From: Leptospirillum sp.
Lineage (GTDB): Bacteria; Nitrospirota; Leptospirillia; Leptospirillales; Leptospirillaceae
NCBI GenBank assembly: GCA_027315205.1
Contig: DAHUYM010000011.1
Span: 1 to 50,036, forward strand
Direction: 5' to 3'
DNA: 50,036 nt
Under the pieces are notes generated by a model that had not been told where the DNA came from, made no database searches, and worked only from the letters and a program-made list of their open reading frames with translations. Within the stretch, counting starts at the first letter, position 1; each line of letters begins with the position of its first letter. The position numbers and the translations under genes were made by a program. Below are positions 30,928 through 50,004 of the stretch, piece after piece.

Positions 30928-31385
30928 TGGTCGACCCCGTCCTCCGAGGGCAGCCGGACGATCGTCAGCCAGAAGTCCTCGATCGACCGGACCACTTTGA
31001 TGAACTGGTCCAGGTCCACGGGCTTGGTGACATAGCAGTTCACGTGAAGGTCGTACGTCTGGAGGATGTCCTGCTCGGCCTCCGAAGAGGTGATCACGAC
31101 GACAGGGATCCTCCTGAGGGCGGGGTCGGACTTGATCTCCGACAGGACTTCCCGGCCGTCCTTCTTGGGCAGGTTCAGGTCCAGGAGGATGATGTCGGGC
31201 CGGGGGGCGTTCCCGTACGGGGATTCCCTGCGGAGGAACTTGAGGGCCTCCTCCCCGTCCTCCGCGACTGAGAGGTTGTTGCGGACCTTGCTTTCCAGAA
31301 GGGCCTCCCGGGTCAGCCGGACGTCCCCCGGATTGTCTTCGACCAGAAGAAACTCCGCAGATCTCCCTGTATCCTTGAGTTTCAT
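30924..31385 (-). CDS. Rcp1-like single-domain response regulator
   Basis: A 153-residue receiver of the Rcp1 group found with phytochrome-like and similar kinases: [10 protein letters not shown] start, phospho-acceptor D69 in [11 protein letters not shown], the TSS of VVITSSEAE and the Lys of [17 protein letters not shown] precedes the ATG. It overlaps both neighbours as ATGA, so kinase, receiver and REC-GGDEF-EAL protein form one coupled unit. It may relay phosphate from the kinase or compete for it. Confidence 0.92.
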
Positions 31386-33037
31386 GTCGATCCCTCCTTG
31401 GGTGCCGGCCCGCCCAGGCCCGCGGACCCGGCATGCAACGTGAAAATGAACCGGGAACCGTTCCCGGGCTCGGATTCGACCCGGATCCGTCCTCCGTGGC
31501 GCTCGACGATTTTCTTGCACATCGCGAGGCCGATGCCCGTCCCGGGAAATTCTTCCCGGCTGTGGAGACGCTGGAAGATGACGAAGATCCGTTCCCAGAA
31601 GCGGGGATCGATCCCGATGCCGTTGTCGGAGACGGTGAATTCCCAGGACTCTCCCAGGCGCTCGGCCGTAACCGCGATCCGGGGAGGGTGGCCCGCGTTG
31701 CGGAATTTGAGCGCGTTCCCGATGAGGTTCTGGAAAAGCTGCATGAGCTGCACGGGGTCTCCGGTGACTGTCGGAAGCGGTCCCGCGATTACTTCGGCGC
31801 CGGCTTCCTCGATGGCCATCCTGAGGTTGGCGCAGGCCTGTTCGAACGCGGTCCGGCTTTCGAGGACGACGTGCTCCTTCCCGCGGGTCCCGACCCTCGA
31901 ATAGGCCAGGAGCGCGTTGATCAGGGACTGCATCCGGATCGCCCCGTCGACGGCGAACCCGATGAACTCGTCGGCTTCGGCGGACAGTTGTCCCTTGTAC
32001 CGGCGGGCCAGGAGCTGGGTATAGCTCGTGACCATCCGGAGAGGCTCCTGGAGATCGTGGGACGCGACATAGGCGAACTGCTCGAGGTCCCGGTTGGACC
32101 GGAGGAGATCCTCGGTGCGGCGGTCGAGTTCGTCCTGTATCGCTTTCTCCCGGGTCCGGTCGCGGAACTCGACGATGAACTGGGTAACCGTCCCTCTCGC
32201 GTCCTGGACCGTGTTCAGCGTTCCCCATGCCGGGAACTCGGTCCCGTCCTTCCGGACGAACGAGAGTTCGCCTTCCCAGGATCCCGACCGGCGGGCATGG
32301 TCTCCGATGGCCGCGAAGACATCCTCCGCCATTTCCGGACCCGGAGCCAGGTACTCCCCCATGCTGTGTCCCCGGAGGGCTTCAGGGTCCCATCCGATAA
32401 TCCGTTCGCCGGTCCGGTTCGCATGCAGGATCCGTCCTTCGGTATCCATGATCCAGACCACCTCGACGTCGGTTTCGAAGACACGGGACAGGAGGTCCAG
32501 CATCGCCTTGTCCGCCTGGAAGTAGGCGTCGAGGGCGAGCCCCGCGTCCAAAAGCGAAATCTTGACGACGGCCAGGATCGTCGGAACGGCTTTTTCCAGG
32601 TTTCCGTTCTCCTTCTCCAGGATCCGGGGGATGATCCATTCCAGGAACAGGGAGAAGGAGCCGAGATACCATTTCGGCTTAAGGCCGATCTTCTGGTGTG
32701 CCAGGCCCACCGCGAGCCGGTTCTGGACGTATTCCATGCCGTAGTCGCCTTCGGTCATCTCGGCGAAATATTCGGCATGCCGTTGCCTGAGCCATCCGAT
32801 CGAGGAGGATTTCCCCAGGACGGAGCGGGTTTCCGGGAACCGGTCGATCCGGTCGTGAAGGATATTGACGAAATCCTTCGCGTCGTTCCTGAGCGAGAGC
32901 GAAAGTTCCGACAGGAGACGCACGTCGTTTTCGGAAAAGTTCAGGAATTCTTTTCGGGATTCGAAATCGCGGGCGTCGAGCGACAGGCTCTCCGCGATCC
33001 GGAGGGTTTCCTCCCGGTAGGCGTGCAACGGTTTCAC
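31382..33037 (-). CDS. Globin-coupled sensor histidine kinase (globin-PAS-HisKA-HATPase)
   Basis: A 551-residue soluble kinase. Residues 28-175 match a sensor globin: helical start [16 protein letters not shown], then the proximal heme ligand H114 in [19 protein letters not shown], the diagnostic segment of globin-coupled sensors. A PAS domain (about 187-296, [21 protein letters not shown]), HisKA with H327 ([12 protein letters not shown]) and HATPase with DNGIGI and GTGIGLAM follow. It should sense O2, NO or CO. The start is uncertain: GTG 33037, overlapping the stop of a small ORF, gives the usual globin N-terminus; a TTG at 33208 lacks a ribosome site. First kinase gene of the operon. Confidence 0.92.
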
Positions 33038-43620: not shown

Positions 43621-43953
43621 ATGAAAATAGAATTTAAGAAAACCGCCCAGGGGAAAGACTTTGATTCGGGGGCCCGGTGCCTCAGGATCCTCGGCCATGC
43701 GATACGGCTCAAGCTCATACTGGCCTTGTCCAGGGGGGAACAAAGCGTCAACGGCCTGGCGAAGGAGCTCGGCATCAGCCAGTCCAACCTCTCCCAGCAC
43801 CTGGCGCTCCTCAAGGACCGGGACATCATCGTATCCCGTCGGGCGGGACACCAGGTGTTCTACGGGATCGACGACCGGCGGATCCTGGACTTCCTCGCTC
43901 TGATGGAGGAACTCTTCTGCCGGGACCGTCCGACCCGGACCTCGAAGCCTTAG
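43621..43953 (+). CDS. ArsR/SmtB family transcriptional regulator
   Basis: A 110-residue winged-helix protein: LRILGHAIRLKLILAL, the recognition helix in SVNGLAKELGISQSNLSQHLALLKD and the wing IIVSRRAGHQVFYGID. It presumably represses itself and the efflux genes behind it until an inducer binds. The only cysteines (C20, C88) are not in the classic alpha3 CxC metal site, so the inducer is unclear. No Shine-Dalgarno site precedes the ATG; the operator abuts it, so a leaderless mRNA is possible. The TolC gene follows by 15 bp. Confidence 0.9.
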   Translation: MKIEFKKTAQGKDFDSGARCLRILGHAIRLKLILALSRGEQSVNGLAKELGISQSNLSQHLALLKDRDIIVSRRAGHQVFYGIDDRRILDFLALMEELFCRDRPTRTSKP

Positions 43954-43968
43954 GAAAAGGAACTTCCG

Positions 43969-45384
43969 ATGACGCGCGGGACGTGGAAAAGAGGGGGCAG
44001 CCGGCCAAGAGAATGGTGCCGGGCGGCGGCCTTGGGAATCCTTGGTGTTTTCACCCTGCTCCCCGCCCCGTCCTGGGGACTGACCCTTCCCCAGGCTCTC
44101 GACTGGGCCCTCGAATCCAGCCCGGAATGGAACCGGGCCCGTCTCGAAACCGGAATCCGGAAAAGCGAGCGGATCCAGGCACTGGGCTCCTACCTGCCGT
44201 CGCTCGCCGTCAGCGAAACGTACATCAATACCAACAATCCCCTCACGGCGTTCGGAATTCTCCTGAACGAAGGGATCGTCAAGGGCGCGACCCTTTCGAA
44301 CGTCAACAGTCTGAACAATCCGACCTATACCCAGACGTTCGGTTTCGCCGCATCGCTTTCCGAGACGATTTTCGACGGAGGGAACCGGTTTTTCGGACTG
44401 AAGGCTGCCAAACGGCGTGAAACAGGGGCCCGAAACGAGAAGGACTGGAAACGCCAGACCCTGATTTCCCGGGTCACCAGGGCTTATCTCGGCGTGATCT
44501 TCGCCGAACGCGAGATCCGGGTCGTGCGCCGCGAACTGGTCGCTGCCCAGTCCGACCGGGATATCGCCCGGCACCGCTGGGAGGCCGGCTCGCTTTTGAA
44601 GTCCGAGTACCTCAGGGCCCGGGTCCACGAATCGCACATGGCCATCTTGGTTCTGGAGGCCGAAAAACGGGCCACGCTTTCCCGCCTGGAACTCTCCCGC
44701 CTGGTCGGAAGACCCCTCGGAAAGGGCATTCTACTGGCCCCTCCCGCCCTTTTCGAGGGAGGGGTCCCCGCCGTACTGTCGGGGCTCTCCGCGAAGGGCG
44801 AGCGGACGCTTCTGGACGAGGCTCTGGCCCGGAGGCCGGATTACCTGGCCGTCAAGGAAGAGGTCCGGGCACGGGACCAGCAGGTGAGCCAGGCGCTCTC
44901 GGGATTCCTTCCGCACGTCGCGGTCCAGGGGATCTACAACGAATACAACCAGGGGCTCAGCGCCTGGGGTCAGCAGTCGTTCACCGCAATCGGACAGGTC
45001 TCCTGGGACCTCTTCAGCGGTTTTGGGGACTCTGAGCGGAGAAGCCGTGCCCGCCTGCGTCTCAGGATGGCCGAATACCGCCGGGAAGATCTCCTCCGGA
45101 CCCTTCACTACGAGGTCTCGAAGAGTCTGGCGACGGCCGCGATCGCCGCGCGGTCCCTTTCGGCGGATACCGAACGGGTGAGCCAGGCGGAGGAAGCACT
45201 CCGCATCATACGGTCCCGCTATCAGGTCGGTCTCGAAACCGTGTCCCGGCTCCTCCGGTCCGAAGCGCGCTATCGGGAAGCGAAACTCAAGACGCTCCGG
45301 GACCGATACCGGATGGACGAGTCGGCAGTCGATCTTCTTTGGGCGACGGGGACCCTGTCCCGCGGCGCCCCGTTGTTCCGTTAG
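43969..45384 (+). CDS. TolC family outer-membrane efflux protein
   Basis: A 471-residue OEP with signal peptide (AAALGILGVFTLLPAPSWG) and two repeated helical-barrel units, starting LTLPQALDWALESSPEWNRARL and AQALSGFLPHVAVQG-like in the second half. It would form the outer-membrane and periplasmic exit duct for the pump encoded next. AAGGA lies before the ATG. It sits between arsR and the MFP gene, all on the plus strand. Full length for the family. Confidence 0.93.
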   Translation: MTRGTWKRGGSRPREWCRAAALGILGVFTLLPAPSWGLTLPQALDWALESSPEWNRARLETGIRKSERIQALGSYLPSLAVSETYINTNNPLTAFGILLNEGIVKGATLSNVNSLNNPTYTQTFGFAASLSETIFDGGNRFFGLKAAKRRETGARNEKDWKRQTLISRVTRAYLGVIFAEREIRVVRRELVAAQSDRDIARHRWEAGSLLKSEYLRARVHESHMAILVLEAEKRATLSRLELSRLVGRPLGKGILLAPPALFEGGVPAVLSGLSAKGERTLLDEALARRPDYLAVKEEVRARDQQVSQALSGFLPHVAVQGIYNEYNQGLSAWGQQSFTAIGQVSWDLFSGFGDSERRSRARLRLRMAEYRREDLLRTLHYEVSKSLATAAIAARSLSADTERVSQAEEALRIIRSRYQVGLETVSRLLRSEARYREAKLKTLRDRYRMDESAVDLLWATGTLSRGAPLFR

Positions 45385-45401
45385 GAAAGGCGAGGTTTCC
45401 G

Positions 45402-46463
45402 ATGAAGCGAACTTTTGGGGTCGGTCCGTTCTTTCTGGTTCTGTGCGGTGTCGCCTTGGCCATCGGTGTTACGGCCTGCCACGGAAAGGACCCGTCGAAA
45501 AAAGCCGGGACAGGGACGTCTTCCGAAACGGTCCGGGTAGCCCCCGTGCGTTCGGAGAACGCCGACAGGACGTCGTACGTGACCGGCGTGGTCCAGGGCC
45601 GGCACGAGGCGACGGTCAAAAGCCTGGTCATGGGGCGGGTCTTCCGGATGACGGCGCGCCTGGGGCAGAACGTCCCGGCAGGGACGGTCCTGGCCGAGAT
45701 CTCCGGGGGCACCGAGGCGGCCTCGGCCGAAGCCGCAGACGCCGTGGCCTCCGAATCGGAGAAGGTGTTTCTCAGGATCGATACGCTGTACAAGAGCCAG
45801 AGCGCCACGAAGGCGGAATGGGACGCCGCACGAAGGGCCCTCGACGTGGCCCAAGCCGATGCCAAGCGCGCCCATGCGGTGCTCGGCCATACGCGCGTTT
45901 CTGCCCCGTTCGCCGGGAGCATCACCCGGAAATTCGTCCGCCAGGGGGATACGGTGGTTGTGGGAACTCCGATCTTCCGGATCGTGCAAATGGGAGGGTT
46001 CCAGGTCGTCGCCCACGTTCCGGACCGGTGGGCTTCCTCGGTCAAGCCGGGACAGAAACTCGTCTTCGCCGTCCGGAAGGACGGGGCGGTCCGGGGCTAC
46101 AAGACCGTGGTCCGGGAACGCTCGAGCCAGTCCGATCCCGAGTCCCACACCGTGACGGTCAAGGCCGACCTGGCCGATGCCGTCCCGCACGTGTGGTCCG
46201 GTCTGTTCGGAACCCTCGAGGTTCCCATCGGGCGCGAGACCGCCCTCTTCGTTCCTTCGGCGTCGGTCGTCGACAGCGACGGCCTCAGGGAAGTGTATGT
46301 GGTCACGGGCGGCAAGGCCTACCTTCGGTACGTGCGGACCGGCCGGACACTCGACGGACGGACGGAAATCCTCTCCGGGCTTTCGGCCGGCGAGGACGTG
46401 GTGGTCGGGCCCTCCGGGACACTCGCGAACGGGGTTTCCGTCCGGATCGAAGAGCGGCAATGA
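45402..46463 (+). CDS. RND efflux periplasmic adaptor (membrane fusion) lipoprotein
   Basis: A 353-residue MFP. The N-terminal leader ends in a lipobox VTAC with C26, so it is probably lipid-anchored. It has a lipoyl/barrel-sandwich pair (VTGVVQGRHEATVKSLVMGRV and VSAPFAGSITRKFVRQGDTV), a helical hairpin between, a beta-barrel and a membrane-proximal domain. AGGCGAGG precedes the ATG. It links the RND pump to the TolC-like duct. Its stop overlaps the RND start (ATGA). Confidence 0.93.
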   Translation: MKRTFGVGPFFLVLCGVALAIGVTACHGKDPSKKAGTGTSSETVRVAPVRSENADRTSYVTGVVQGRHEATVKSLVMGRVFRMTARLGQNVPAGTVLAEISGGTEAASAEAADAVASESEKVFLRIDTLYKSQSATKAEWDAARRALDVAQADAKRAHAVLGHTRVSAPFAGSITRKFVRQGDTVVVGTPIFRIVQMGGFQVVAHVPDRWASSVKPGQKLVFAVRKDGAVRGYKTVVRERSSQSDPESHTVTVKADLADAVPHVWSGLFGTLEVPIGRETALFVPSASVVDSDGLREVYVVTGGKAYLRYVRTGRTLDGRTEILSGLSAGEDVVVGPSGTLANGVSVRIEERQ

Positions 46464-48658
46464 CGGACGGGGCGCAGGCCGGAGGCCCGGACGGGCCCGA
46501 CAGGACGGGAGGACAGGAGGTCCGCCTCGGACTGGCGGGAACCCTTTCGAAACGGTTCATCCGTTCCAAGCTGACGCCGATTTTCGTCATCGTGGCCCTT
46601 CTCCTGGGGTTTACGGCCGTCGTGGGCACCCCCCGCGAAGAAGATCCCCAGATACGGGTCCCGATGATGGATATCTTCCTGAACTATCCGGGCGCTTCAC
46701 CCCGGGAGATCGAACGGACCGCCGCGGCTCCGCTCGAACGGCACCTGAGCCGTCTGAAGGGGGTCAAGACCGTCTATTCCTCGTCTTGGCAGGGAACCTC
46801 GGTGGTCACCGTCCGGTTCCATGTCGGGGAGTCGATGGACACGAGCCTCGTCAAAGTCTACTCGGAAGTCATGAAAAGCCGGGCGTATCTTCCCGCCGGC
46901 GTCGGTCCCGTCCTGGTGAAGCCCAAGGACATCAACAGCGTGCCGGTCTTCTCGGTGACGCTCTATTCGGCCAAAGAATCCGACTACGTCCTCACCCGGC
47001 TCGCCCGGAGGATGGCCACACGCTACGAGCGCCTGCCGGGGACTTCCGACGTCACGGTCATCGGTGGCCGGAAGCGCTCTTTAAGGATCGTCCTGGATCC
47101 TTCGGCCCTGAAGGCGCACGGGCTCTCGATCCTCGACGTCACGCGGGTTCTCGAGGGTTCGAACCGAAGCCTCGACCTGGGCCGTTTCGACCGGGCGAAC
47201 GTCTCGTTCAGGGTTTCGCTGGAAGGATCCCTGACCCGGGCTTCCGAAGTCCGGAACCTTGTGATCGGCGTCTACGGAAACCGCCCGGTGCGCCTGGGCG
47301 ACGTGGCCCGGATACGGGACGGACCCGCGGCCATTTCCCATTATGTGTGGGTCGGGTTCGGCCCGTCGGTGAAACGTCCGGGAAGCTTCACCGCCGTCAC
47401 GGTGGCCGTCGCGAAGAAAAAGGGGACCAACGCGGTCGACGTGACGAACCGTCTTCTCGAGAAGACGAAGGACCTGTCCGGAAAGCTTCTCCCGTCCGAC
47501 GTGCACTGGTCCGTGACCCGAAACTACGGACATACGGCCGACGAGAAGGCCAACGATCTCCTGAAGCACCTCGTGATCGCGACGGTCGCCGTGATTGTCC
47601 TGATCGGTCTCGCACTCGGTATCCGGGAGACCGGCGTCGTGGCGGTCGCGATCCCGGTGACGCTCGCGCTGACGCTCTTTTTCTCGATGCTCATCGGATA
47701 CACGGTCAACCGGGTGACCCTGTTCGCGCTGATCTTCTCGATCGGGATCCTGGTCGACGACGCGATCGTCGTCGTGGAGAACATTTTCCGGCATTTCCAT
47801 CTGCTTCGAGGGCGGACCGGACCCGAGACCTTGGCCGACCGGGCGATCTTCGCCGTGAACGAGGTAGGGAATCCGACGATCCTGGCGACCTTCACGGTGA
47901 TCGGGGCCCTTCTCCCCATGGCGTTCGTGACCGGGCTCATGGGTCCCTACATGCGGCCGATCCCGGTCAACGCCTCGATGGCGATGATCGGATCCCTGTT
48001 CGTCGCATTGGTCGTCGCCCCCTATTTCGCCGTACGCCTGATCCCGCCGGGGGAGCACAAAAACCCGTTCACGGGAAGGGTCGACAGGTTCGTACGGCAC
48101 GCCTACCAGGCCCTCATGCGCCCTCTCCTCGATTCCCCCCTTCGCCAGAACCTCTTCCTGGGAACGGTCGTCGTGCTGACGGTCGGGGTCATGGGCTTTT
48201 TCTACTCCCGGTCGGTTCTTCTGAAGATGCTTCCGTTCGACAACAAGAGCGAAGTCGACGTGGTCATCGACATGCCGGCCGGGACCACGCTCGAGGGAAC
48301 CGCGCGGGTCGCGCGGGAGCTCGAGGCGGTGATCCTGTCGAACCCAAGCGTCGAAAGCGACCAGGTCTACGTCGGTACCGCCTCTCCGTTCGATTTCAAC
48401 GGCCTGGTGCGGCATTACTACCTGCGGGCCGGGAACCGCGCCGGGGATATCCATATCAACCTCCTTCCCAAGGACGAGCGGTCGCTCCAGAGCCACACGA
48501 TCGCAGAAAGCCTGGACCGCGCCCTGTTTCCCGTGGCCCGGAGGCTCGGAGCCCGCATCAAGGTGGTGGAGGTCCCGCCCGGGCCTCCGGTGTTCTCTCC
48601 GATCGTGGCCGAAGTCTACGGCAAGGACCGTACGGAGATCGACCGGGAGGCGAAATGA
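46460..48658 (+). CDS. RND efflux transporter, N-terminal part (ends at an in-frame TGA)
   Basis: The first 732 codons of an RND pump of about 1,080 residues. First helix, porter-domain start (PGASPREIERTAAAPLERHL), and the helix-4 proton-relay motif GILVDDAIVVVENI are intact. Reading stops at TGA 48656-48658 within the second porter domain, but the same frame continues with RND sequence (VENVFLKTPGVVDVD) to 49714 without any shift. Arg CGA to TGA by one C-to-T change is the simplest explanation. ATG overlaps the MFP stop. Without readthrough the pump lacks half its membrane domain and is probably dead; a sequencing error is also possible. Confidence 0.9.
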   Translation: MTDGAQAGGPDGPDRTGGQEVRLGLAGTLSKRFIRSKLTPIFVIVALLLGFTAVVGTPREEDPQIRVPMMDIFLNYPGASPREIERTAAAPLERHLSRLKGVKTVYSSSWQGTSVVTVRFHVGESMDTSLVKVYSEVMKSRAYLPAGVGPVLVKPKDINSVPVFSVTLYSAKESDYVLTRLARRMATRYERLPGTSDVTVIGGRKRSLRIVLDPSALKAHGLSILDVTRVLEGSNRSLDLGRFDRANVSFRVSLEGSLTRASEVRNLVIGVYGNRPVRLGDVARIRDGPAAISHYVWVGFGPSVKRPGSFTAVTVAVAKKKGTNAVDVTNRLLEKTKDLSGKLLPSDVHWSVTRNYGHTADEKANDLLKHLVIATVAVIVLIGLALGIRETGVVAVAIPVTLALTLFFSMLIGYTVNRVTLFALIFSIGILVDDAIVVVENIFRHFHLLRGRTGPETLADRAIFAVNEVGNPTILATFTVIGALLPMAFVTGLMGPYMRPIPVNASMAMIGSLFVALVVAPYFAVRLIPPGEHKNPFTGRVDRFVRHAYQALMRPLLDSPLRQNLFLGTVVVLTVGVMGFFYSRSVLLKMLPFDNKSEVDVVIDMPAGTTLEGTARVARELEAVILSNPSVESDQVYVGTASPFDFNGLVRHYYLRAGNRAGDIHINLLPKDERSLQSHTIAESLDRALFPVARRLGARIKVVEVPPGPPVFSPIVAEVYGKDRTEIDREAK

Positions 48659-48691
48659 GTCGAGAACGTATTCCTGAAGACGCCAGGCGTC

Positions 48692-49714
48692 GTGGACGTC
48701 GACAGTTCGATCGAGGCCCCGCAGACCCTCTACCGGATCGCAGTCGACCAGGAAAAGGCGGCCCTTTCGGGCGTTTCGACCTCCCAGATCGCCATGGCCC
48801 TCTCCTTCGGTCTCCACGGGGTGTCCGGCGTCCTGCACACGGACTCCGGCATGGGGTACGTTCCCCTGTCGATCGAATACCCCAGAACCGTGCGTTCGGA
48901 CATCCACAACCTGAACACGATCTCCGTGAGAGGCCGTGACGGACGTCTCGTTCCCGTCCGGACCCTGGTCCACGTGGAACGGACGACGGCGCCCGCGACG
49001 CTGTACCGGAAAAATCAGAGGCCCGTCGAGTATGTGGTCGGCAACACGATCGGGTCGAACCGGAGCCCTGTCTATGCGGCGGTCGACCTCTCCCGGGCCG
49101 TGGAGAAGGACGCCCGGTCGATCCATGTGCCGGTCCGGGCGTACTTCTGGGGGTATCCTTTCTCCGGGAGGGAGCTTTCCGTCCGGTGGGGAGGGGAATG
49201 GCACGTCACGTTCATCACCTTCCGGGACATGGGGATCGCGTTCGCCGCGGCCATCGTCCTGATCTATCTCCTGATCGTCGCCGAATTCGAGAGCTTCGTG
49301 ACGCCCCTGATCCTCATGAGTCCGATCCCCCTGGCATTGATCGGCGTCATACCGGGGCACCTCCTGTTCGGCTCCAATTTCACGGCGACGTCGATGATCG
49401 GATTCATCGCCCTCGGGGGGATCATGGTCCGGAACTCGATCCTTCTGGTCGATTTTCTCCACAAGAAGCGCGCGGAAGGTATCGGCATCGACCGGGCGAT
49501 CCTGGAAGCCGGCGCCGTCCGGACCCGTCCTATCCTTCTGACGGCACTGGCGCTTATCGCGGGTTCGTTCGTCATTCTGGACGACCCCATTTTCCGGGGG
49601 ATGGCGATATCGCTCCTGTCGGGGTCGGTCGTGTCGACGCTCTTGACGCTTTTCGTGGTGCCGCTCCTGATCAAGAGGGTGGAAGAGAGCGCGTGGTCCT
49701 CTCCCAAAACGTGA
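48692..49714 (+). pseudogene. RND efflux transporter, C-terminal part (continues the same frame after the TGA)
   Basis: This is the remaining part of the pump: rest of the second porter domain, TolC-docking segment (RPVEYVVGNTIGSNRSPVYAA region), and the last helices (FVTPLILMSPIPLALIGV, GIMVRNSILLVDFLHKK, RTRPILLTALALIAGSFVI). It is in the same frame as 46460-48658; the reading is open from 48659. GTG 48692 is the first usable start but has no good ribosome site, so independent translation is doubtful. With the N-terminal part it would total 1,084 residues, normal for RND pumps. Confidence 0.8.
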
Positions 49715-49782: not shown

Positions 49783-50004
49783 ATGAAGATCGAACGCGTG
49801 ATTCGCGGATTTGCCGGGACTGTGATCCTGGCGAGCCTTCTTCTGGCCCACTTCCAGTCGCCCTATTGGCTTTGGCTGACGGCGTTCGTGGGAGCGAACC
49901 TTTTGCAGTCCTCACTGACCCGGTGGTGTCTCCTGGAGTCCATCCTCCGGAGGGCGATGCCTTCTGACGCCGTACCCGGGGCGAAAAAGGAGAAGACGGC
50001 CTAG
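49783..50004 (+). CDS. DUF2892 (YgaP-like) small membrane protein
   Basis: A 73-residue protein with two hydrophobic helices and the DUF2892 pattern: KIERVIRGFAGTVILASLLLA, WLWLTAFVGANLLQSSLT, then RWCLLESILRR with the cysteine common in this family. AAGGAG lies seven bases before the ATG. DUF2892 domains often accompany rhodaneses; here it stands alone 68 bp after the RND gene and may belong to the same transcript. Role unknown. Confidence 0.82.
   Translation: MKIERVIRGFAGTVILASLLLAHFQSPYWLWLTAFVGANLLQSSLTRWCLLESILRRAMPSDAVPGAKKEKTA

Follow-up and report, generated by a model that had tools for sequence, protein, structure and literature searches.

Permeases of the AcrB/MdtB type (Pfam ACR_tran; PDB 9lyq for MdtB, 7cz9, and 1iwg for AcrB) are the closest described counterparts of the protein encoded at this locus, which has the same full domain architecture once its two parts are joined; unlike them, the gene here is interrupted, at a point matching approximately residue 700 of AcrB-type proteins. 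Searched alone, each part also scores below the curated cutoffs of the named NCBIfam RND subfamilies. As for the interruption itself, truncation mutations are described as a frequent cause of gene inactivation in bacteria, and pseudogenes with a single premature stop occur, for example, in Salmonella (PMC9241588). What such pseudogenes share with this locus is a lineage-private in-frame stop in a gene that is otherwise intact and has intact homologs, whereas for the species studied here the analysis covered one genome. The systems of UGA recoding, through selenocysteine (Sec) or stop codon readthrough, resemble the locus in that an open frame continues past a UGA.

Structure of the interrupted permease gene

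The window, meaning the whole stretch of DNA that was analyzed, is an entire contig (C2; 50,036 bases) from a genome of 2.0 Mb in 42 contigs that is 99.93% complete. The forward-strand frame at positions 46460 to 49714 translates as one RND (AcrB-type) permease whose sole internal stop, the TGA at 48656 to 48658, is codon 733 of 1,085 and lies about 1.4 kb from the contig end. Past this TGA the frame resumes unshifted with VENVFLKTPGVVDVD and runs to the TGA at 49712 to 49714, and the translation contains no other lesion. The part before the stop matches positions 5 to 642 of the ACR_tran profile (PF00873; 1021 positions; E = 8.5e-105) and the part after it matches positions 696 to 1016 (E = 2e-53), the two together covering the profile lengthwise at consecutive stretches, and homolog alignments cross the junction without a frameshift. 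Translation, Pfam search, and homolog alignment therefore confirm the initial annotation in its description of a frame that opens at 46460, halts at this TGA, and continues in frame to 49714. By homology, the N-terminal fragment comprises TM1 to TM7 and most of the periplasmic domain.

Gene neighborhood

The order ArsR, TolC, adaptor, RND, and DUF2892 (YgaP-like) is the same in all five family relatives examined at length and in L032 (Table 1). The regulator is 52 to 70% identical to the ArsR proteins in the relatives' operons. The stop of the adaptor (MFP) gene overlaps the RND start (ATGA), and its true start is probably the internal ATG at 45402. The ArsR, TolC, and MFP genes had earlier been called intact, which is borne out by their Pfam and NCBIfam matches and by the order kept in relatives.

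Table 1. Features of the efflux operon and of the interruption in its permease gene
Feature	Position	Strand	Evidence
ArsR-family regulator, intact	43621..43953	+	Pfam HTH_5; NCBIfam HTH_metalloreg above cutoff; BigR model below cutoff
TolC-type outer-membrane channel, intact	43969..45384	+	Pfam OEP, E 9.6e-45; order kept in relatives
Periplasmic adaptor (MFP), intact	45339..46463	+	NCBIfam RND_mfp, E 1.5e-56, above cutoff; kept in relatives
RND permease, N-terminal fragment, 732 aa	46460..48658	+	Pfam ACR_tran 5-642; open full-length homologs in family relatives
Private in-frame TGA, codon 733	48656..48658	+	No stop at this column in 109 homologous loci
RND permease, remaining C-terminal part, 351 aa, same frame	48659..49714	+	Pfam ACR_tran 696-1016; start scan
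Small YgaP-like transmembrane (DUF2892) protein	49783..50004	+	Pfam PF11127, E 6.1e-14; kept downstream in relatives; near RND homologs

A DUF2892/YgaP-like gene sits near many RND homologs, across many phyla. The ArsR at the head of the operon in the family (L148 to L152 and L032) resembles BigR, below the cutoff of that model, and two cysteines of the regulator are kept in family relatives, one in GARCLR near the N end and one in ELFC near the C end. The Escherichia coli protein YgaV, a sulfide-responsive homolog of SqrR/BigR, has been studied alongside YgaP (PMC9774250). By analogy, the likeness of the regulator to BigR and the DUF2892 partner make it a testable idea that the role of the pump could be linked to sulfur.

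Distribution of the stop among homologs

When the window's genome was searched together with 60 relatives, most same-family genomes proved to carry full-length, open RND homologs, and a wider scan of 84,980 species genomes brought in 80 further RND loci. The resulting set comprised 109 loci (111 minus two copies of the window itself); at least one relative is probably represented by duplicate sequences, one from each of two collections, as L010 and L032 have like scores. At the column of codon 733, a stop is found in 0 of the 109 loci; a sense codon occupies it in 108, and the remaining locus has an alignment gap. None of the 16 loci that belong to the same family (65 to 75% identical) has a stop there. 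Nor did the homologs contain internal stops anywhere else in the aligned RND gene, the few stops seen being confined to the extreme, ragged ends of alignments. Because the column is free of stops in all 109 loci, the TGA is, on this comparison, private to the window's genome among the genomes compared. The locus thus presents an in-frame stop that truncates a gene with full-length homologs, as a pseudogene made by nonsense mutation does.

The position is a variable one, with Q, K, E, H, D, R, S, G, and N across homologs. Comparison of the codon in close relatives, which the initial annotation had proposed, returned sense codons throughout: arginine in the two nearest sequences (L003 and L004; 74 to 75% identical) and H or K in the remaining family members. 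The arginine codons fit the earlier guess of a CGA-to-TGA change at an ancestral arginine.

Constraint before and after the stop

A simple Nei-Gojobori count against each of the two nearest relatives put pairwise pN/pS at 0.26 and 0.24 after the TGA and at 0.26 and 0.31 before the TGA; between these two relatives the values were 0.21 and 0.24. When columns invariant in more distant family members were taken as reference, the window gene broke 14 of 189 after the TGA (13 and 10 in the two intact nearest relatives) and 30 of 366 before it (18 and 26). GC content by codon position is nearly equal in both parts of the gene. Relaxed constraint or further lesions would be supporting signs of a pseudogene, though a recent break does not require them; the gene shows no further lesions, and a long-dead pseudogene is rejected because conservation after the stop is unreduced. 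Since conservation is as high after the TGA as before it, either the break is recent or one assembly base is wrong. The unreduced conservation is expected of a recent break, in keeping with the earlier suggestion of a recent inactivation if the stop is real, and it is expected equally of a base error. Judging from these counts, ordinary constraint acted on the gene up to the very recent past, and it continues to act if the base is an error.

A recent nonsense mutation or an assembly error

We consider it likely that the RND permease gene of this conserved five-gene efflux operon was inactivated by one recent, lineage-private nonsense substitution. The stop, its absence from relatives, the otherwise undamaged gene, and the lack of any detected recoding machinery are direct observations; that the TGA base is real, that the break is recent, and that pumping is lost are inferred from them. 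A single recent substitution in the lineage would have placed TGA at codon 733, the mRNA would be translated through codon 732 with normal release at the TGA, and the truncated product would be missing TM8 to TM12 with the rest of the transporter's second half, among it the C-terminal portion of the proton-relay region. No working pump would then be made, although the other four genes of the operon, for the regulator, the channel, the adaptor, and the membrane protein downstream, are intact.

When aligned to solved RND pumps, the TGA falls in the periplasmic domain, and the matching residue of AcrB lies inside the second C-terminal porter subdomain. The part before the TGA contains ILVDDAIVVVEN, the acidic pair of the proton relay, and the part after it contains GIMVRNSILLVDF, the basic partner region, with roles assigned from AcrB. 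By analogy with these pumps, neither fragment should pump, because the stop lies in the periplasmic domain and separates the two halves of the proton-relay region.

If the mutation is real, a transporter kept in a conserved operon by most of the family members sampled has been lost recently in this lineage or is now being lost, in a genome without a close paralog of it, and the loss matters for annotation and for predicting efflux capacity. The DNA of the RND gene occurs once in the genome, and there are 10 other RND matches, at most 29% identical to it among the matches listed. On these grounds a mix-up with a close paralog is rejected, and no close substitute for the pump is seen among the matches listed. 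A nonsense mutation here reveals no new mechanism; it is an ordinary lineage-private one.

The main competitor, which we regard as rather unlikely but well short of negligible, is that the TGA is one wrong assembly base (a sequencing, consensus, or strain-mixture error) and that the organism's pump gene is intact. In favor of such an error are the lack of a second lesion, the unreduced constraint after the TGA, the position of the stop near a contig end, and the intact gene in all relatives. However, the assembly does not look error-rich: among the neighboring same-frame or overlapping coding segments checked, no second split gene was found, each pair being separate genes (HtrA-like protease and response regulator; histidine kinase and hexapeptide transferase; Amt and P-II; RuvA and RuvC). 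There is also no near-identical paralog available for mixing. In bacterial genomes, real nonsense mutations outnumber consensus substitution errors that create a stop, and on these general grounds, given an assembly that shows no sign of being rich in errors, a genuine nonsense substitution is likelier than a base error. Of the three options that the initial annotation rightly set out (nonsense mutation, readthrough, and sequencing error), the comparison with relatives leaves mutation and error.

Readthrough and separately made fragments

A third explanation is that the UGA is read through or recoded by program, giving a full-length and perhaps regulated pump. The frame is open and conserved on either side of the TGA, as this would require, but we judge it very improbable. 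TGA terminates 28 of the 46 coding segments predicted by codon statistics in the window, where it is the commonest stop, so the code is standard and general recoding is excluded, as had been claimed. In contrast to known UGA recoding systems, the stop here is shared with no homolog and no decoding machinery was found in the genome. The best SelB match reached 109.7 bits, far below the cutoff of 242, and low matches to the SelB model are expected from other translation GTPases. The best tRNA-Sec score was 43.2 (cutoff, 47), at loci that ARAGORN calls ordinary tRNAs; among the 43 tRNAs found in the nearly complete genome, all of them read with this program, none has a UCA anticodon, and the tRNA-Trp anticodon is CCA. 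Selenocysteine would in any case make no sense at codon 733, where no homolog has Cys. A stop codon RNA element is likewise rejected: the window has no match to Rfam families, and the RNA around and after the TGA yields no stimulating structure, folding worse than shuffled sequence (z = +1.4). With no shared stop, no Sec or suppressor tRNA found, and no unusual fold, programmed readthrough is without support and is disfavored among the options first raised. We give equally little credence to the UGA being read through at a useful level such that the premature stop sets the dose of the RND pump; were this true, a single premature stop would act as a dose setting while the full-length protein was kept.

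A split permease, with each fragment translated on its own and the two polypeptides then assembling, is a reading that we can hardly credit and that finds no support: both parts are open and conserved, but the first in-frame start past the TGA in a start scan, GTG at 48692, has no evident ribosome-binding site, the break interrupts a folded periplasmic subdomain and not a boundary between domains (from the alignment and the structure of AcrB), and no relative has the arrangement.

Other observations

Among the tRNAs found in the genome, tRNA-Cys (GCA) is absent; an assembly gap or a missed gene is possible. Elsewhere in the window, a histidine kinase at 31385 to 33022 on the reverse strand carries a protoglobin domain at its N terminus together with a PAS domain and adjoins two response regulators, one of them of the GGDEF-EAL type; it probably provides a gas-sensing input to c-di-GMP signaling.
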